A stretch of DNA of 29,049 nucleotides from a bacterium (lineage in GTDB: Bacteria; JAJRZV01), in the NCBI GenBank assembly GCA_024275095.1, contig JAJRZV010000028.1, forward strand, positions 1 through 29,049, given 5' to 3'. The notes beneath the pieces are model-generated. The model worked only from the letters and a program-made list of their open reading frames with translations. It was not told the DNA's origin and ran no database searches. Shown here piece after piece: positions 4,292-13,286 of this stretch. The position numbers and the translations under genes are program-made. The first letter of the stretch is position 1. Each line of letters begins with the position of its first letter.

Positions 4292-5704
4292 TCAAGGTTC
4301 TTTGATGCCGTGGTATTTGAGCTTGTACCTGAGGGTGCTTCGTGCGATGTTGAGCATGGCTGCTGCGAGAGTCTGATTGCCTCGCGCTTTTTTCAATGTG
4401 TAGAGCAGAAGGTTGCGTTCAAATTCGTCCACCAGGTCTTTGAGGTTCTGCCCGGGGCCTTCCCCGCGTGCTGAACGCTCGAGTTGTGTGTCAACGTAAT
4501 ACTCCATGGGAAGATCCAGCATTTCAATGTAACCTGTTTCGTTAAGGGCGACCAGACGCTCGATGAGATTCTGGAGTTCGCGGATGTTACCCGGCCAGGA
4601 ATATTCCATAAGAATTTTGAGTACACTTTCGTCAATTCCCCGGATTTCTTTCCCCATCATGCGGGAATATCTGGTGATAAAGTAATTGATGAAGTCCGGT
4701 ATATCTTCCTTGCGTTCACGCAGTGGTGGAAGATGAAGAGGAATCACGTTGAGGCGATAGTAAAGGTCTTCTCGAAATTTTCCTTCCCTGACCAGTCGTT
4801 TGAGATTCTTGTTTGTGGCGGCGATAATGCGTGTTCGCACCTTGACCGTGCGCTCTCCGCCAACACGTTCAAACTCTCCGGTTTGAAGCACCCGGAGCAG
4901 CTTTCCCTGAAGAGCCACGGGTGTATCACCGATCTCGTCCAGAAAGATGGTTCCTCCGTCAGCGAGTTCAAATTTTCCAAAATGTCGCTGGGTGGCCCCT
5001 GTAAAGGCTCCCTTTTCATGCCCGAAGAGAACGGACTCAGCAAGCTCGGGCGTGAGGTTGTTTACGTTTACGGTCACAAACGGTCCATCTGAAAATGGCG
5101 ATTTGTTGTGAATGTATCGGGCCAGGATTTCTTTTCCTGTGCCGCTCTCTCCGGTTATGAGTATGGTTGAGGGAAGGCGCGCTATCTTTTCTGCCACTTC
5201 AAAGATTTTCTGAACGTGACGATTGCGACCGATAATAAGGGTTTTGAGCTCTTCCTCTTCTTCGGTACCTTCAGCTACTAACTGAATTTGTTTTCTCACC
5301 TGGATGCGTTCAAATGCTCTTTCCACCCGTGTACACAGCTCTTCTCTGGAAAATCCCTTGACAAGGTAATCAAACGCTCCTTTCTGCATGGCTTCCACAA
5401 CCAGGGGAATATCCTTGAGTACCGAGATCATGATGATTTCCACGTTGAAGAAGTGGTTTTTAATTTTTTCCAGGAGTTCGAGTCCGTCTTCCTCTCCCAG
5501 GCGGATGTCCAGGAGAATGACGTCTATGTTGACACGGTTGAGTACGGCCAGAGCTTCTCCGCCCCCGGAAGCTTCGTATACCTCATATTCATCGCTCAAG
5601 AATTCCCGCACGGTGTTGCGGTCGGATTCTTTGTCGTCAATGACAAGTACACGTCGAACAGGCTGTAGAGGTATCTCAATGATCCGTGATGGCTCTACTG
5701 GCAT
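4292..5704 (-). CDS. NtrC-family sigma-54-dependent response regulator
   Basis: A 470-residue activator that opens sigma-54 promoters after phosphorylation. The receiver domain (about residues 17-130) has the acidic pair in VIDD, phosphoacceptor D66, S94 and K116. The AAA+ domain has Walker A GESGTGKE (185-192), the sigma-54 contact loop GAFTGA (232-237) and Walker B IFLDEIGD (D256, E257). A Fis-type helix-turn-helix ends the protein (about 430-466, ARGNQTLAAAMLNIARSTLRY). Its ATG overlaps the TAA of the preceding receiver gene by one base (TAATG), so translation is coupled. thyX follows by ten bases. The partner kinase is unknown; the only kinase in the window is at 11384-13057 on the other strand. 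Confidence 0.95.
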   Translation of the reverse strand: MPVEPSRIIEIPLQPVRRVLVIDDKESDRNTVREFLSDEYEVYEASGGGEALAVLNRVNIDVILLDIRLGEEDGLELLEKIKNHFFNVEIIMISVLKDIPLVVEAMQKGAFDYLVKGFSREELCTRVERAFERIQVRKQIQLVAEGTEEEEELKTLIIGRNRHVQKIFEVAEKIARLPSTILITGESGTGKEILARYIHNKSPFSDGPFVTVNVNNLTPELAESVLFGHEKGAFTGATQRHFGKFELADGGTIFLDEIGDTPVALQGKLLRVLQTGEFERVGGERTVKVRTRIIAATNKNLKRLVREGKFREDLYYRLNVIPLHLPPLRERKEDIPDFINYFITRYSRMMGKEIRGIDESVLKILMEYSWPGNIRELQNLIERLVALNETGYIEMLDLPMEYYVDTQLERSARGEGPGQNLKDLVDEFERNLLLYTLKKARGNQTLAAAMLNIARSTLRYKLKYHGIKEP

Positions 5705-6063
5705 TAAATGTACCTCGTAACGATGTTGAGAAGCTCGCGGAAATGAAAGGGTTTGCGTATAAACTCATCGCATCCGGCGCGGCGACAGCGTTCTTCTGTA
5801 TCTGGGTCGCTTTTTGCAGTGATAATAATAACCCGGGTTGATGAAAGCTCTGGGTGGGATTTTACAAAGCGACATATGGTATCACCCGTCATCCCGGGCA
5901 TTGCATAGTCTATTAAAGCCACCTGAGGCCGTTCTGATTGAATTTTCTTGAGGGCCTCTGTCCCGTCCGTGGCGGTAATAATGGTACATCCTGTCCGCCG
6001 CAAAAGCACCTCTTCTAACTTCACCACACTGACCGCATCATCCGCGATAAGTATCTTTTTCAT
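5704..6063 (-). CDS. single-domain response regulator (CheY-like)
   Basis: A 119-residue stand-alone receiver domain with acidic pair DD (8-9), phosphoacceptor D52 (ALIDYAMPG), T82 (IITAKS) and K104 (FIRKPF). It has no output domain, so it probably acts by protein contact or as a step in a phosphorelay. It is the first gene of the minus-strand operon, followed with one-base overlap by the NtrC-type activator, so the two probably share a signalling path. The start lies only about five bases from the transcription start predicted from the promoter at 6075-6103, and no ribosome binding site is visible. Its mRNA may thus be nearly leaderless. Confidence 0.92.
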   Translation of the reverse strand: MKKILIADDAVSVVKLEEVLLRRTGCTIITATDGTEALKKIQSERPQVALIDYAMPGMTGDTICRFVKSHPELSSTRVIIITAKSDPDTEERCRRAGCDEFIRKPFHFRELLNIVTRYI

Positions 6064-6289: not shown

Positions 6290-8281
6290 GTGAATGTTTT
6301 GGTGACACTTGCACTCATTCAGCAAATTGCTATGGAACGAATGTTGTTCAGACCCGTAACGTCTCCTGCATCCTGGGTTGAAGCGATTAGTACTGCCCAG
6401 ATGGAAAAGTGGGGCAAACTTCACACAGATGGGAGCCTTTCACTTGTTCCGGGAGTGTATTCCACGGGTTCCATGCATCCGGGAACACCCGTGAACGTGC
6501 TTGTTCGCGGTGGCGTGCCGTACGGGGTACAGGTGTATCTCGAGGGTGTATTGCTCAGGTCTGTTCTCAATGCCGGTCAGTTCAATCTGACAGGGTTCGT
6601 TCCCGAGGGCATTGGAGGACTTGAGGTTTTCAGCGGGCCGTCGGCCACGCTCCTTGGAGCTGAATCATCGTCTGGAGGAATAAACGTACTTTTCCCGCCA
6701 CATGTTCAGGGACTGAATTCTTACGTTCAGGTAACAGAGGGCGGCTACGTGAGAGCTGGAGCTGGATACGGTGGCAGGGCCGGAGATGCTCTGCGGTATT
6801 CTTTGCTTGCAGGAGGAGAGCTCACCCTCAGGGACCGGTACGGAAGGGATGCCGATGGAAGCTACGGGATCCTGAACGTCCAGGGTAAGCTCGGCCGGTG
6901 GACGCTCAGGCTGAAGGGATATTTTCTGGAAAAAAGGTGGGAGGTGGGATTCAAGTTTTCCCAGGTGCTCACTGTTCAACGATTCATTCAAGATCAACAG
7001 CAAAATCCTGACATCCAGATGTTCATGCCGGTGGGTGTGATTGATCCCAACCAGCGTTACAGGCAGGGACTTGCGTATTTGCTCGCGGAGGGAACTTCCA
7101 GCTGGAACGGGGACAGCGTGAACCTGCAGGTTTACGTGGCACGCACTGGAGAGTCTTTACTGGATATGCCTGATGACCACGATAGTTCCCTGAGCTTTGG
7201 ATTGACAGGAGAGGAGGTTCTCCATCGTGTGCGTTCATGGAGATACGGCGGCAGAGTTCACTGGACTTCTCAGACCCGGTGGGGACTGTGGGCCTCACGT
7301 GCTGGTATTGAAGGGGAGAGCCTGGAAACGTTTTGCCTTTCTCCCGTGGGATTTTGTGGTGCGGAGGTGTCACAGGATTTTTCAGACGAAAGAGTCGATG
7401 GCTGGGTAGGATTGGAATACTTTAATCGGTTTAGTGTTATGGGGGTGTCGGCGGCGGGACGCATTGATTACATCAGTCGTTACAGTACAGTGGAGAACCT
7501 TTCCGGGCGCGTGTTTCTTTATATTCCGCCTGTTGTAAGAGATCTGAAAATTACACTTTCAGGAGCAATATCCAGGGGAGTAAGGGTACCGCGAATGGAT
7601 GAACTTTACTTTGGTGACAGGGCGAACCCGGCATTGCGTCCTGAAAAGGGTCTCATGAAGGAACTCGCGGTCCTTGCTTCGTGGCAGGGGACTCCTCTGG
7701 CGATTCAGTTCAGAACCATGTATTTCAAAAACAATTTCAAAGACCTCATTACGCGCGGCATAGATCCTTCTCGCCCCGGGGCTCTCGTGTACGTGAACCT
7801 GGACAACGGAGTGAGCGAGGGTGTGGAAGGAGTGTTCAATCTTGAAGCTTTTAAAAAAGTTTTTCTGAAACTGGTGGCAACGCGGATGAGCATGAGAAGG
7901 CAGACACCCCTGTCCGGCTGGAAGGATCTGCTCGTACACCTTAAGCCCAGATACATCGTTAACGCATACACGGGAGTAGAAGACGGCTTGTGGAGCGTGG
8001 TTGCTCAGTGGGAATCGGTGGGGCCGTGGAAGGAACCCTTGCCCTATGTGGATGAAAATGGCGAAGTCCATGGAGACCCCGTTGCTCGGGCTCCCTTCGA
8101 GCAGAAAGGTTACAACTTGCTGCATATCTATGCCCGGCTGAATCTGAAGAAAATAAGGAGTATTGAAAGACTTTCTGTGTTTGTGAAGGTATACAATCTT
8201 TTGAACAGGAAATACCGCCTTCCTGGCGGTTTCCCGGGGATTCCTCGAACGGTTACTTCAGGCATTGAGCTTTCCATGTAA
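6290..8281 (+). CDS. TonB-dependent outer-membrane receptor
   Basis: A 663-residue outer-membrane beta-barrel with an N-terminal plug. The plug (about residues 35-145) shows VPGV, VLVRGG, the GLEVFSGPSATLLGAESSSGGINVLF stretch (the usual IEVxxGPxSxLYGxxAxGGVINI pattern) and a short IHLVP-like segment. Barrel strands follow, with the VPRMDELYFGDRANPALRPEKG segment and the late VYNLLNRKYRLPGGFPGIPRT motif typical of the family. Start is GTG 6290; an in-frame TAA at 6257 excludes a much longer start. The N-terminal segment MNVLVTLALIQQIA is hydrophobic but lacks basic residues, so the signal peptide is poor, and I see no clear TonB box. The ligand cannot be told from sequence; it lies directly upstream of the maturase-peptide block. 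Confidence 0.88.
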   Translation: MNVLVTLALIQQIAMERMLFRPVTSPASWVEAISTAQMEKWGKLHTDGSLSLVPGVYSTGSMHPGTPVNVLVRGGVPYGVQVYLEGVLLRSVLNAGQFNLTGFVPEGIGGLEVFSGPSATLLGAESSSGGINVLFPPHVQGLNSYVQVTEGGYVRAGAGYGGRAGDALRYSLLAGGELTLRDRYGRDADGSYGILNVQGKLGRWTLRLKGYFLEKRWEVGFKFSQVLTVQRFIQDQQQNPDIQMFMPVGVIDPNQRYRQGLAYLLAEGTSSWNGDSVNLQVYVARTGESLLDMPDDHDSSLSFGLTGEEVLHRVRSWRYGGRVHWTSQTRWGLWASRAGIEGESLETFCLSPVGFCGAEVSQDFSDERVDGWVGLEYFNRFSVMGVSAAGRIDYISRYSTVENLSGRVFLYIPPVVRDLKITLSGAISRGVRVPRMDELYFGDRANPALRPEKGLMKELAVLASWQGTPLAIQFRTMYFKNNFKDLITRGIDPSRPGALVYVNLDNGVSEGVEGVFNLEAFKKVFLKLVATRMSMRRQTPLSGWKDLLVHLKPRYIVNAYTGVEDGLWSVVAQWESVGPWKEPLPYVDENGEVHGDPVARAPFEQKGYNLLHIYARLNLKKIRSIERLSVFVKVYNLLNRKYRLPGGFPGIPRTVTSGIELSM

Positions 8282-8564
8282 AAAACATTTCCTGGCCCGG
8301 GGTTACTTGGTATCAAGATTCAAAAAAGAAAAGAACAGCAAGTCCTTCAGGCGATATTCCGCTTCGAAGAGAAAGTGTGGCGAAAAGTTGCCTTTTGACA
8401 AAATTCAGCCATTTGGTTTTGACAGTGGCATAGAGGTCACTCTGCCTGGTGTGTAAATTTTTATCTGGCCGAAATTGGTCAGGCACGGCTCGATCGCTTC
8501 GCTGCTAAGTTCCTGAGAATTCGGCAGAAACATGTTGGCACAAACCTTCCCTTTGTAGTGTGGC
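8282..8564. other. 283-base gap before the radical SAM gene, no supported gene
   Basis: No gene can be supported here. The minus strand holds a 42-codon open frame (8533-8405) starting MFLPNSQELSS, which after one TGA continues open for another 30 or so codons. The plus strand holds a 63-codon frame from a TTG inside the receptor gene. Neither has a convincing ribosome binding site. CTGGCC-GAAATT-GGTCAG near 8465-8482 can form a small stem-loop. TTGGCAC at 8535-8541 resembles the -24 half of a sigma-54 promoter, but the -12 half reads TTCCC instead of TTGC. Confidence 0.4.
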
Positions 8565-9824
8565 GTGCGATGGTCAACCTACAACGTGGAAATACCCCTT
8601 ACAGAAAAACTGAAAATGATCTACAACCCATTCACGGGTGGAGAGGTCATTGTTGAAGATTCGGGTGGAGATTTGGATGCAGACACCGCAGAGGTGCTGG
8701 CAGAAGCGGGTTTGGTGGTGGATGGGGATGAGGAAGCCGAATATTCGCGCGTTAGAGAGTCAATTTTTGCTGATTCCACCATGGGCCATGCCACGCTTCT
8801 CCTCACAACTGCCTGTAACTTCAGGTGTGTTTATTGTTTCCAGGAAGGTGAACGTCCACGCTACATGGATGACTTCACGGCAGAGGCAACAGCATGTTTT
8901 CTCGTAAACAGAGTGAAGGAGAGAGGGCTCGAGGGCCTGAGGCTCGTGTTTTACGGGGGCGAGCCCCTGATGAATTTGCGCGCTCTGCGCATCATTGCAC
9001 GCTATTGCAGGCACGGGTTAAACGGGCGGTTCGAGGCTGGTGTGATTACCAACGGATACTATCTCACTCCCGAGGTTATCCGCGAGCTGTGGGATCTGGG
9101 CGTCCAGTGGGTCAAGGTTACCATTGATGGAGTTCCGCCTTTTCACGAGAAGATGAGACCGGCGAGGCACGGCAGGCCCACCTTTGAAAGGCTTTTTTCC
9201 AACATGGTGAAAGCGGGCGAAAAACTCCGCGTCATCCTGGCAGCCAATTACACGGCTGAAACAGTGGAAGGTGTTTACCGGCTTGTTGATTACGTTGCAG
9301 CTCGAGGTGGACAGCAGTTTATAGACAAGTTTTTTGCTCGTCCGGTATTTGGAAAGCTTCTGTGCGACTCGGGGGCAGATATTTATTCATATGCACACAG
9401 CGATATCGAAGAGCTTTTCCGCGTGAACATGCATGCGGCCAAGCGCGGGTTCCCCATCAAGGACTTTTTCCACCTGGGCCCATGCAATTTTTACGATGCC
9501 TCGAGCCTGGCAGTGGATCCTGTGGGCAATGTGTACCCCTGCGAGGGTCTCGTGCATTTCCCGGAGTTTAAGGCTGGCAATGTAAGTCGAAGTGTTGATG
9601 AAACCGCTCTCGTGGACGTGAAAAAGGTGGAGCGTTTTCGCCCGTGCCGGCGCTGCCCGTATCTTCCCGCGTGCGGGGGTGGATGCGCTGTTTCCGCGCT
9701 TGTTGCCCGGGGCTCGCACGAGAAGGTGATGTGCGAGAAAACCTTTTTTGAGCGGGCGGGCGTAAGGTTTCTGAAAGAAAGGGCCCTTTCTGAAATAACA
9801 CAACAAAAGGAGGTGGCAATATGA
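8565..9824 (+). CDS. radical SAM/SPASM peptide maturase
   Basis: A 419-residue radical SAM enzyme of the SPASM subfamily, which modifies ribosomally made peptides (relatives: PqqE, MftC, anSME). The N-terminal segment (RWSTYNVEIP, YNPFTG) is the usual lead-in. C84-x3-C88-x2-C91 (CNFRCVYC) binds the SAM cluster, and FYGGEP near 127-132 contacts SAM. The SPASM part is complete: C307-x13-G-x4-C326, then C361-x2-C364-x5-C370-x3-C374, then C390, ligands for two auxiliary Fe-S clusters. Start is GTG 8565; an in-frame TAG nine bases upstream rules out earlier starts. The stop overlaps the ATG of the 21-codon peptide gene (ATGA). No separate PqqD-like carrier is adjacent. The chemistry performed cannot be read from sequence. 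Confidence 0.93.
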   Translation: MRWSTYNVEIPLTEKLKMIYNPFTGGEVIVEDSGGDLDADTAEVLAEAGLVVDGDEEAEYSRVRESIFADSTMGHATLLLTTACNFRCVYCFQEGERPRYMDDFTAEATACFLVNRVKERGLEGLRLVFYGGEPLMNLRALRIIARYCRHGLNGRFEAGVITNGYYLTPEVIRELWDLGVQWVKVTIDGVPPFHEKMRPARHGRPTFERLFSNMVKAGEKLRVILAANYTAETVEGVYRLVDYVAARGGQQFIDKFFARPVFGKLLCDSGADIYSYAHSDIEELFRVNMHAAKRGFPIKDFFHLGPCNFYDASSLAVDPVGNVYPCEGLVHFPEFKAGNVSRSVDETALVDVKKVERFRPCRRCPYLPACGGGCAVSALVARGSHEKVMCEKTFFERAGVRFLKERALSEITQQKEVAI

Positions 9825-9886
9825 AGGTACTGAAAATCAAAAAAGTGGTCCGCCAGAAAGCTGTTTGTTCATGGTACCTCTACTGA
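9821..9886 (+). CDS. 21-residue putative RiPP precursor peptide
   Basis: A 21-codon gene (ATG 9821, TGA 9884-9886). The N-terminal part, MKVLKIKKVVRQ, is strongly basic; the C-terminus is KAVCSWYLY, with one cysteine, one tryptophan and two tyrosines. AAAAGGAGGTG (9806-9816) sits four to six bases before the ATG, the best ribosome binding site in this region. The ATG overlaps the stop of the radical SAM/SPASM gene by four bases. Size and position fit a substrate of that enzyme: PqqA is about 23 residues, and the mycofactocin precursor also ends in tyrosine (VY). I infer a basic recognition part and an aromatic core. No double-glycine or other cleavage site is visible. I recognise no family; function is inferred from context. 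Confidence 0.72.
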   Translation: MKVLKIKKVVRQKAVCSWYLY

Positions 9887-9927: not shown

Positions 9928-11376
9928 GTGGTGGGGTTGAGAAATTCAAAGGGGCAGGGGGTAGGGTTCTACCTGCTCCCCTTTTTCTTGTTTGTTTTTG
10001 TGTTGGGTGGTGTTTCAAGTTGTAGAGTCCATGAAAAGCGCCAAGAGTTAAGAGTAGGAGTAGTAGATTACGTTCAGCTTTATATTCCTGCACAACAGGA
10101 AATTGCGACGATAGGACCCTTTAGTACTGCCATCAATGAGCTTCGGAGAGAGAAAGTATGGACGGAACGCTATTGGGAAGCTAAGGATAATGGCAGAAAA
10201 ATTGTGTGTGGTGAAATGAAAAAATTAAATAAAAAAATCAACATGGAAAAACTTATTGATAGTTTAAATACAGCAGCAAAACGTTCTTTTTATATAACGG
10301 GTCACAATGGCTTTGTATTTTCAAGACTGCGTTTTGAAAAAGGCTCTTCCGAATGTCCTCTTAAGGTTTTGTTTCCTTCATACATATCTCCTTTAGAAGT
10401 GATGGCAATATTAAAAAGAAGAGCTTTTGTTATTTCACAGGAAAAGAAGAAAAGATTGTTTGTGATTGACCACCTGAATTCCGCGGAGGTTGTTTTAAAG
10501 AGAAACCCTTTGGCTGAACAGAAAAATAATTTTTCACAAATATTCCTCAAGGCCTATCCCCGTCCGGAAAAGGCTTTTGCAGCACTTCTCAACGGAGACG
10601 TGGACCTGGCCTTTCCTGTTCCATATTTTTTGTACAGCGCATACAAAAGTGTCAGCGGCCTCGAGTTTAAACTGTATAACATCGAGAACTTCGTTTACAT
10701 TATTGCCTTCAACCACAAACATCTTGGAACCGGTGAAAACGATGTGCTCCACAAGGTGCTGGACCTCGCTGCTGACAGGGAAAGAATCAACAGGGATGTG
10801 TTCGGCGGCCTGGCAAACCTCGAAGGCTTCTGGCCCTGGAGGTACGATCCTGTTGAAGCCATGAAGATGCTCGACGAGCACGGGTGGCACTATGCTCCCC
10901 ATTCTTCCATCAGGGAAAAGAACGGTAAGAAGTTAATGCTGAAGGCAGCCTTTCCCGAATGGTGGCCCGAGGGGCGACGTATTCTGTTTCTCTTGAAAAG
11001 AGATTTTTATCGAATAGGCATCGGGCTTGATGTAAAATCCATAAGCTTCGAAGAAATGAGGAAAATTTTTGTCGAACAAAAAGACGATTTTGACCTCGTT
11101 TTTATCATGGGTGTGGTGGGTTATCCTCACACCCCGCTTGCGCTCTGGTGCAGGAAACTGGCAGGCCGGTTCAACCCGTTTGCATACGATGACCCTGACT
11201 TCTGCCGGGCTTCTGCAAAAGGTGACGCAGAAGGAGTCATTCGGGCTGCGTTAAAGAACCCGCCTTTTGTGTTCATCGCGGAAGCCCCCGTGGTTGTGGC
11301 TGCGGATGAACTGCTGGAGATTCCCCGGGAGAGCTACCTTTTTGAGAATATCCAGCAGTGGAGGTTCCGCCATTAA
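9928..11376 (+). CDS. solute-binding lipoprotein, family 5 (peptide-type) like
   Basis: A lipoprotein related to DppA/OppA-type binding proteins (SBP family 5). The signal peptide has a hydrophobic run FYLLPFFLFVFVLGG and lipobox VSSC. Family features lie in the second half: AFAALLNGDVDLAFPVP, then LDLAADRERINRDVFGGLA and EAMKMLDEHGW, the typical late segment of these proteins. The mature protein is about 450 residues, shorter than the usual 500 or more. Start is uncertain: GTG 9928, GTG 9931 or TTG 9937, none with a good ribosome binding site. A terminator-like hairpin lies inside the signal-peptide codons. Bases 10020-10550 are much more AT-rich than the rest of the gene. No ABC permease or ATPase genes are adjacent, so it may serve the downstream kinase as a sensor partner rather than uptake. 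Confidence 0.82.
   Translation: MVGLRNSKGQGVGFYLLPFFLFVFVLGGVSSCRVHEKRQELRVGVVDYVQLYIPAQQEIATIGPFSTAINELRREKVWTERYWEAKDNGRKIVCGEMKKLNKKINMEKLIDSLNTAAKRSFYITGHNGFVFSRLRFEKGSSECPLKVLFPSYISPLEVMAILKRRAFVISQEKKKRLFVIDHLNSAEVVLKRNPLAEQKNNFSQIFLKAYPRPEKAFAALLNGDVDLAFPVPYFLYSAYKSVSGLEFKLYNIENFVYIIAFNHKHLGTGENDVLHKVLDLAADRERINRDVFGGLANLEGFWPWRYDPVEAMKMLDEHGWHYAPHSSIREKNGKKLMLKAAFPEWWPEGRRILFLLKRDFYRIGIGLDVKSISFEEMRKIFVEQKDDFDLVFIMGVVGYPHTPLALWCRKLAGRFNPFAYDDPDFCRASAKGDAEGVIRAALKNPPFVFIAEAPVVVAADELLEIPRESYLFENIQQWRFRH
9948..9986 (+). terminator. terminator-like hairpin between peptide gene and binding protein
   Basis: AAAGGGGCAGG pairs, with small bulges, with CCTGCTCCCCTTT, around an inner GTAG-GGTT-CTAC hairpin, and is followed by TTTTT (9982-9986). 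A second hairpin, AACCCC-GTGGT-GGGGTT, lies just upstream (9922-9938). The structure sits about 60 bases after the peptide stop but inside the apparent signal-peptide codons of the next gene. Partial termination here would leave more peptide-maturase mRNA than binding-protein mRNA; this is inferred. Confidence 0.5.
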
Positions 11377-11383
11377 AACCTCT

Positions 11384-13057
11384 GTGCGAACACGGTTGTG
11401 GAAACTTGTGCTCGCGGCAGCCATTGTGCCCGTGATATTTTATGGCCTTCTTAACGCAGCAACCTTTCTCAGGATGACGGCAGAGTCCACACGCGAAAGG
11501 CTCAAACGCGTGGGCAGCAGGGTCTCCGAGGAAATTACTTCTTATATAAAGCACAACTTTGACATCATGGAAACTCTTGTTGAATCTTTCTCCGGAGCGA
11601 TGATGACACCTGAGCAGGTGGATGTGCTCCTTAAAAACTATGTTGTTAATTTTTCCCGGATCAGGGACATGCAAATCCGGGTGGGTCGGCACTGGTATTA
11701 CGCAATATTACAAAAGCCCATGGTCACTCCTCCCCTTTTTTCGATTTCAGCAGAAAAAGCTGTCTCCTCGATTGCTTTTGAAAAGGAAACGGGGCTTCCT
11801 GTGATTTTTTTGCAGTTGAAAAAGAAGGATTCTATTCTCGGTGACGTTGAGGTGACGGCAAGAGTGAGCATTATTGACCTCTGGAAACGCCTTATGAATG
11901 CAGAAGCTGATACCGGCATTACGTTTATCCTGACCGACGGGCAGGCTCGCATCATCGCTCACAGTCGCAAAACGCGGAAAGCCCAGGCCCTGGTATTTAA
12001 TGACACGAGGGTCAGGGATTTCCTGGCGCACAGCTCGGATAACCTTTTCGTTCGGGAACCTGACGAAACTTATTCCATGGTGGTGACGCAGGAAGTTAAG
12101 GGTCCCGGGTGGTTTCTCGCTGCTGCCCAACCTGTTGGCATGTGGGGGAGCAAGGCATTTTATACTGCACTGCGAATATTTGCCTTTATTCTTTCCTTTG
12201 TGTCTTTTGCGACCCTCGTATCTTATTATCAGGGTGGATACATAACCGGTGCTGTAGAGGAACTCGTGAAAGGCACAAGGGAGACAGCGGCAGAGAATTT
12301 CTCGTATCGGATCAGGTTGAGAACCGGAGATGAGCTGGAAGAACTCGCAGATGCCTTCAACGAAATGAACACTCGGATAAGAGAACTGCTCGAAGAGGTA
12401 AAAGAAAAGGAAAGAAAGCTGACGTTTGTAAGGCTCATTCGAGGTGTGCTGCACGACCTCAAGCATCCTTTTGCTGGCATGAAAACTGCACTTTCTTTTC
12501 GCGATGCAGAAAAGATGAAGGAGCAAATCTCACGGCATATTGAAGAGACAGAACAGCTTTTTGAGGACCTCCAGGCTCTCGGGCAGGAAAAACTGGAAAT
12601 CCCTCTTTTAAAGACTCCAGTGCATGAGGTGGTGAAAGAAGCGGTGGACATGTATAGCGACGCCGCGAAACGAAAAGGGATTGCCATAAGTTTTCAAACA
12701 CCTGAAAAAATTTACGCTCATGCTCATCCACAGTATTTGCTGCGTGTGCTGTGCAATCTGGTAGAAAACGCTGTTCAGGCCACGTCCCACGGAAAAATCG
12801 AAGTTATTGCAAAAGATGAGGGTGAGAAGATTAAAATAGTAGTGGTGGATACAGGAAAAGGCATTCCTCCGGAGAACCTTCCGCGAATTTTTCAATGGGA
12901 GTTTTCCACCAAGCATCGTGGTCTGGGATTGGGATTGGCGTTGTGCAAGCGTTTTGTAGAAGCAATGGATGGAAGCATAACAGTGGAAAGTGAGGTGGGG
13001 AGGGGAACGACCTTTACCATTGTGCTAAAAAAGCACAGGGAGGAGAAAAATGCCTGA
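11384..13057 (+). CDS. membrane sensor histidine kinase (Cache-like, HAMP, HisKA, HATPase)
   Basis: A sensor kinase of about 557 residues. The first membrane helix is LVLAAAIVPVIFYGLLNAA. A periplasmic domain of about 250 residues looks Cache-like. The second helix is FAFILSFVSFATLVSYY. A HAMP linker (GDELEELADAFNEMNTRI) and coiled coil follow, then the H-box VLHDLKHPFAGMKTAL with the phosphorylated histidine in HDLKHP. The ATPase has N-box NLVENAVQAT, G1 DTGKGIP, F-box and G2 GLGLGLAL. No response regulator follows; candidates are the CheY-like and NtrC-type proteins at 4292-6063. I choose GTG 11384, but AUU 11372 has a better spaced GGAGGT (11360-11365) and overlaps the stop of the binding-protein gene, so the true start may be AUU. 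Context suggests it reads the binding protein or its ligand. Confidence 0.92.
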   Translation: MRTRLWKLVLAAAIVPVIFYGLLNAATFLRMTAESTRERLKRVGSRVSEEITSYIKHNFDIMETLVESFSGAMMTPEQVDVLLKNYVVNFSRIRDMQIRVGRHWYYAILQKPMVTPPLFSISAEKAVSSIAFEKETGLPVIFLQLKKKDSILGDVEVTARVSIIDLWKRLMNAEADTGITFILTDGQARIIAHSRKTRKAQALVFNDTRVRDFLAHSSDNLFVREPDETYSMVVTQEVKGPGWFLAAAQPVGMWGSKAFYTALRIFAFILSFVSFATLVSYYQGGYITGAVEELVKGTRETAAENFSYRIRLRTGDELEELADAFNEMNTRIRELLEEVKEKERKLTFVRLIRGVLHDLKHPFAGMKTALSFRDAEKMKEQISRHIEETEQLFEDLQALGQEKLEIPLLKTPVHEVVKEAVDMYSDAAKRKGIAISFQTPEKIYAHAHPQYLLRVLCNLVENAVQATSHGKIEVIAKDEGEKIKIVVVDTGKGIPPENLPRIFQWEFSTKHRGLGLGLALCKRFVEAMDGSITVESEVGRGTTFTIVLKKHREEKNA

Positions 13058-13286
13058 CAAACTGGAAAGGGTGGATATAAGAGAAGATTTCCACGATGAA
13101 TATGTGGAAGTGAGGTATTATCGTTCCTTGAGTATAGATGGCTCCGTCTCGTATTATGCGCATGTGATATTCGGCTCAGGGGACAGCTTCATTATCGACG
13201 ATGCGGATATAGACAGTGTCGCGGCAAAGGTGGAACGCATCCTTCCAGTATCGTATTATGTAAGGCAAATGGGTAACCATACCTGA
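13050..13286 (+). CDS. 78-residue protein of unknown function
   Basis: I do not recognise this protein. It has 78 residues, is acidic in its first half, lacks a signal peptide, membrane segment or cysteine, and has a tyrosine-rich pattern (VEVRYYRS, VSYYAHV, VSYYVRQ). The start ATG 13050 has a good ribosome binding site (GGGAGGAG) and overlaps the end of the kinase gene by eight bases, so translation is coupled. The next gene begins nine bases after its stop. The coupling suggests work with the kinase, perhaps as a small cytoplasmic partner, but nothing in the sequence proves this. The predicted shape, alternating strands with a final helix, is only an impression. Confidence 0.75.
   Translation: MPDKLERVDIREDFHDEYVEVRYYRSLSIDGSVSYYAHVIFGSGDSFIIDDADIDSVAAKVERILPVSYYVRQMGNHT

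Follow-up and report, generated by a model that had tools for sequence, protein, structure and literature searches.

The window, a 29,049-nucleotide stretch of bacterial DNA analysed as a whole, contains a radical SAM maturase gene that runs into an open reading frame of 21 codons. This raises the question of whether the short frame encodes the substrate of the maturase and, if it does, what the peptide is made for. The two genes are as follows.

8565–9824, plus strand: RRE-radical SAM-SPASM peptide maturase, 419 aa, GTG start (PF04055, TIGR04085, invariant cysteines, CteB model match)
9821–9886, plus strand: precursor peptide gene encoding MKVLKIKKVVRQKAVCSWYLY (21 aa; ribosome-binding site, similar peptides in 12 other genomes, shuffle test)

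The maturase and the short gene at its end

The maturase carries the radical SAM motif C84-x3-C88-x2-C91 and all seven SPASM cysteines (C307, C326, C361, C364, C370, C374 and C390), as an earlier note on this DNA had read them. The SPASM spacing fits C-x13-G-x4-C ... C-x2-C-x5-C-x3-C ... C, and all ten cysteines are invariant in an 11-member alignment of relatives. The protein matches PF04055 (E 6e-19) and the TIGR04085 SPASM model (52 bits; cut-off, 27). In its AlphaFold model (pLDDT 80), three strands and two helices precede the barrel. The best match of this model among solved structures is CteB, covering residues 4–410 (Z 25.8, rmsd 4.2 Å, 376 residues), and a profile search agrees (E 1.7e-44). 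The alignment to CteB gives the model the RRE-rSAM-SPASM fold of the ranthipeptide/SCIFF type. Because these strands and helices lie ahead of the barrel and CteB is matched both by the model and by profile, the N-terminal part of the maturase likely holds an RRE-like leader-binding domain. Together, the Cx3Cx2C motif, the seven SPASM cysteines and a conserved adjoining precursor gene mark the protein as a radical SAM/SPASM peptide maturase.

The earlier note had also proposed an overlooked precursor gene overlapping the maturase stop, and its reading of the junction holds. The ATG at 9821–9823 overlaps the TGA at 9822–9824, and a near-perfect ribosome-binding site, AAGGAGGT at 9807–9814, ends 6 nt ahead of that ATG. 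We share the view that the gene is too short for gene callers: 21 codons is below the size they accept, and standard annotation would miss it.

Is the frame there by chance, with the maturase acting on some other substrate? We counted open reading frames of 12–45 codons with a ribosome-binding site of at least five matching bases in the gaps between the radical SAM gene and the gene of a binding protein (SBP). Exactly one such frame occurs per gap in the window, G092, G454, G146, G072 and G525 (six gaps, five lineages), and all six encode a peptide of 21–26 residues with a basic leader and C-x-W near the end. After dinucleotide shuffling, such a frame with C-x-W near its end appeared in 0, 1, 0, 2, 0 and 0 gaps per 1500. 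The short-ORF HMM search that had been suggested as a check was unhelpful; an HMM built without the window peptide fails to single out the window frame among 1175 short ORFs, the one observation that speaks for chance. The claim therefore rests on position, ribosome-binding site, motif and recurrence, not on the peptide sequence by itself. Against the shuffle test and the recurrence at the equivalent place in five lineages, a chance frame is hardly credible.

The other suggested check, a short ORF beside homologous maturases elsewhere, gave a positive result. The nearest maturases were gathered by whole-genome search, and their surroundings were screened for short ORFs preceded by a ribosome-binding site. 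A comparable short ORF adjoins the homologous maturase in 12 other genomes, as follows.

G525: MKVIVLKKGVKPEKVCAWFKY, GTG start
G092: MKLQVIKKGTRKDDKKTLYCAWFVST
G454: MKLKVVKKGSKEDKKVLWCFWYLYV
G146: MKIIKKGTRRNSRSVNRCVWVISH
G072: MKIIRKGNRRSNPGTNRCVWVIMQ
G224: MKVIKVGKKYGRVHPMGCCWYIYGGYMLGF
G084: MKIKILKKGKMNSNMKCYCCIYAGLPIA
G014: MKLTVIRVGKPGPLGCVILR
G059: MKLTVIRTGKPGPLGCVILR
G060: MKLTVIRVGKPGILGCIMFR
G574: MEAKSKVIRKDSRRRQERQPGGGGTGGPRCGEGPV, among the two least certain
G781: MKVKKSEKKKTVVVRKGERHLPPSKMPPPWPSCHDAGMF, start overlapping the stop of the maturase, like that of the window gene; among the two least certain

Across these relatives, precursor genes beside RRE-rSAM-SPASM maturases encode 20–39 residues. 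C-x-W is not universal, differing in G014, G084, G574 and G781, and cysteine is the only constant core residue. The precursor–maturase pair is strongly supported, and the peptide gene is real and is kept in several lineages of phylum rank. Among the genomes compared, the source genome (2.45 Mb, 136 contigs) is alone in its phylum, which makes a comparison within its own lineage impossible; for the phyla or classes of G014, G092, G146, G525 and G574, two to five genomes each were searched. Viral contigs gave no relative, and plasmid records gave distant maturases only (<30% identity). Scanning genome contigs with a three-row alignment returned mainly generic radical SAM patterns and one useful match, L031. 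Homologues in G018 and G049 were rejected as relatives of the system, as they have Cys-rich precursors and belong to a different clade.

The sensory neighbourhood

The genes around the pair form a conserved module, comprising a sigma-54 response regulator, a TonB receptor, the maturase, the peptide, an SBP_bac_5 lipoprotein, a dCache histidine kinase and a small protein. The earlier note missed this context, which holds the greater part of the functional information. The features in the window are listed here.

4292–5704, minus strand: NtrC-type sigma-54 response regulator (PF00158, PF00072)
5704–6063, minus strand: single receiver-domain protein (PF00072, 86 bits)
6290–8281, plus strand: TonB-dependent receptor (PF00593, PF07715); adjoins the maturase in G146 and G072 too
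8536–8551, plus strand: degenerate sigma-54-like site TGGCACAAACCTTCCC, 29 bp ahead of the maturase (p 0.06 in the window)
9928–11376, plus strand: SBP_bac_5 lipoprotein, start codon uncertain (PF00496, 53 bits); orthologous position in relatives
9957–9990, plus strand: terminator-like hairpin with a T run, downstream of the peptide gene and overlapping signal-peptide codons of the SBP frame; same position in relatives
11384–13057, plus strand: membrane sensor histidine kinase (PF02518, HAMP), start uncertain (ORF open from 11267)
13050–13286, plus strand: conserved small protein, 78 aa

An SBP_bac_5 protein and a histidine kinase stand beside the pair in nine genomes (the window, G014, G059, G092, G454, G146, G072, G525 and G574), representing six lineages, and no permease genes lie alongside the SBP. 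In G781 the contig ends inside the SBP gene. The absence of permease genes favours sensing over import. The kinases of G092, G454, G525 and G574 have dCache_1 domains, and the window kinase is homologous over its whole length (27% to the G454 dCache kinase over residues 40–585, E 1e-65). NtrC-type regulators adjoin the module in the window, G454, G146, G072 and G574, and in G781 as judged by length and receiver domain. The window regulator is 45–48% identical to the module regulators of relatives, compared with 38% to another NtrC of G574. TonB receptors adjoin the module in the window, G146, G072 and G454, and G157 has one alongside a CC peptide and an SBP; none is found near the module in G092, G014, G525 or G574. 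Sequence comparison thus shows the precursor–maturase pair accompanied by an SBP_bac_5 lipoprotein, a predicted sensor kinase and a response regulator in most lineages found.

Sigma-54-type (−24/−12) sites lie 31–92 bp ahead of the maturase in G092, G454, G146, G072, G574 and G781 (p 0.007–0.02 each, compared with randomly chosen stretches of the respective contig). No such site was found ahead of the maturase in G014 and G059, whose regulator, at 260 aa, is of a different and shorter kind, and nothing above chance was found ahead of the window TonB gene. Homologues of the small protein (78–87 aa) follow the kinase in the window, G454, G146 and G072. The 78-aa protein has no Pfam match, and a fold search gave no significant match. 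Perfect sigma-54 sites precede its homologues in G146 and G072, so the circuit may have this protein as one of its outputs.

The module genes include no conserved exporter or leader protease. In G084, an MFS transporter, possibly an exporter, directly follows the maturase within an apparent cobalamin salvage/uptake operon. In G525, the peptide gene is separated from that of the SBP by the gene of a prepilin-like protein with an N_methyl motif (L197:7698–8309).

Proposed mechanism and its alternatives

On balance, we favour a RiPP system that is tied to a sensory operon and works as a pheromone-like or metallophore-like self-sensing loop. In such a loop, the N-terminal RRE of the maturase would bind the basic leader (V-I-K-K-G or similar), and radical SAM chemistry would crosslink the conserved core cysteine with one of its neighbours, most likely through a thioether bond. 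The product would be trimmed and then exported. In diderms it would return through the TonB receptor and be captured by the SBP. The loaded SBP, or the ligand directly, would activate the kinase, which would phosphorylate the NtrC-type regulator. The regulator would then fire the sigma-54 promoters of the maturase gene and, in some relatives, of the small protein, giving positive feedback. We infer this chemistry and function, including the modification, export and ligand binding of the peptide, from the genes and their comparison. Because the maturase is related to CteB and PapB and cysteine is the only invariant core residue, the product is probably a thioether-crosslinked single-Cys RiPP. 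Points against the loop are the lack of a conserved exporter or protease, the degenerate sigma-54 site of the window, the patchy TonB receptor and a C-x-W that is not universal.

In sensing of the LuxP–LuxQ type, a periplasmic binding protein partners a membrane kinase and there is no permease. The window module would resemble this arrangement in its binding protein and membrane kinase without a permease, and differs in its binding-protein family and in having a peptide as putative ligand. Streptococcal RaS-RiPPs are Rgg/SHP-controlled, with a separate peptide and a cytoplasmic regulator controlling the cluster; the likeness lies in radical SAM peptides tied to quorum sensing, whereas the window has a binding protein, a kinase and a sigma-54 regulator instead (PMC13361665).

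A hairpin like that of the window follows the peptide gene in G092, G454, G072 and G525 (five genomes in all), which would be expected were the precursor produced in larger amounts than the products of the genes downstream. With its Trp and Tyr codons and the terminator-like hairpin behind it, the short ORF might also be read as a regulatory leader peptide, with the hairpin attenuating the SBP–kinase genes and the peptide being no maturase substrate at all. This is very unlikely, given that the peptide gene lies upstream of the maturase in G014, G059, G060 and G084, with no Trp in these peptides, and that the leader V-I-K-K-G and the cysteine are kept as amino acids. Also against it, six of the seven codons that differ between the peptide genes of G014 and G059 are synonymous and one is nonsynonymous; comparisons with G060 lean less to one side (2 to 4 and 3 to 5). 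It is scarcely probable that the peptide is a redox cofactor precursor like PqqA or MftA. That reading would account for a very short precursor with an aromatic C-terminus beside a SPASM maturase, yet the conserved neighbourhood holds no dehydrogenase, peptidase or further biosynthetic enzyme, and sensory genes stand there instead. Both readings are less likely than the sensory loop. The anSME systems, named as an analogue in the earlier note, are a poor one because they are not precursor-peptide systems.

Uptake of a peptide metallophore partly overlaps with the self-sensing loop and differs in purpose. A modified Cys peptide would chelate metal and be taken back through the TonB receptor and SBP, with the kinase reporting metal–peptide status. 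The TonB receptors beside the module fit this, as does the best NCBIfam match of the SBP, nickel-binding NikA (50 bits, below cut-off). Methanobactin operons likewise pair a very short Cys precursor, of ~30 residues, with a TonB transporter (PMC3621798). They differ in their MbnB/MbnC chemistry, which uses no radical SAM enzyme, and the window has a kinase and a sigma-54 regulator; a scan of the genes adjoining the peptide gene showed no MbnB/MbnC. The metallophore reading is opposed by the missing permease genes, by the few ligands that one cysteine offers and by the several modules that keep SBP and kinase with no TonB receptor nearby. We consider it unlikely. The self-sensing loop, if true, would give a biological role to a group of radical SAM peptide systems for which NCBI has family names only, and would tie radical SAM RiPPs to binding-protein/kinase sensing with sigma-54 feedback.

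Relation to geopeptides and ranthipeptides

The best NCBIfam model for the maturase is TIGR04280 (geopeptide maturase), at 174 bits against a cut-off of 400. The PapB and SCIFF maturase models are also among its best matches, and it falls below the cut-offs of TIGR03974 and NF047865 (85 bits against 425 and 102 against 340). L031 encodes a true TIGR04280 member (523 bits) with the precursor MQEQIIVLDQGMDEAKVAIMGTCCVGKPSTPATAAPTK. The window peptide does not match TIGR04229 even at E 10, where the L031 geopeptide itself scores only 12 bits. In a 38-sequence tree, the window maturase groups with the C-x-W/CVILR rows (92/95) and outside the adjoining CC-geopeptide clade (100/99), its exact place being uncertain because its branch is long. 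By these sequence comparisons, the window maturase is sister to, not inside, the geopeptide maturases. The earlier note placed the peptide in no recognised family; the system is nevertheless related to a known one through its maturase and the h-V-h-x-x-G leader of the precursors.

The geopeptide system shares with the window a homologous maturase and a short precursor with an h-V-h-x-x-G leader and a Cys core. The window peptide has C-x-W rather than CC, and its binding protein is SBP_bac_5 rather than PF04392. In most of 15 geopeptide-side loci (L151–L164 and L199; 10–20 kb read per locus), the maturase is accompanied by a kinase, a binding protein and a TonB receptor: the receptor occurs in 13, a PF04392-type binding protein in 12 and a related kinase in 8–10. 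The better-known sister family seems to follow this logic too, with a binding protein of another kind. CteB (SCIFF) and PapB ranthipeptide maturases have the RRE-rSAM-SPASM architecture and a Cys-containing substrate in common with the window. The window substrate is far shorter, with one core Cys and no SCIFF pattern, and belongs to a sensory operon.

The window thus holds a variant of geopeptide-like radical SAM RiPP systems, and we did not find its sensory operon described in the open literature. The open-access literature searched made no mention of geopeptide or TIGR04280 and held nothing relevant on a radical SAM RiPP with TonB and kinase. More tentatively, and with some doubt, there may be a widespread undescribed class of 20–26-residue single-Cys crosslinked peptides that are caught by an SBP, reported by a kinase and self-induced through sigma-54, with the geopeptides (CC) as a second branch using another binding protein. 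As this case shows, position and comparison can reveal precursor genes of ~21 codons, which lie below gene-caller size.

A different radical SAM peptide system occurs in G049, where a pair of neighbouring SPASM maturases is accompanied by tandem Cys-rich precursor-like ORFs, MEFLNYPNSGYQTDFC... and MEFINIPKNESNKELDFC... (L007:819–1176 and L006). In L134 and L138, two geopeptide-type maturase ORFs reach 721–726 aa, each with a C-terminal extension of ~290 residues.
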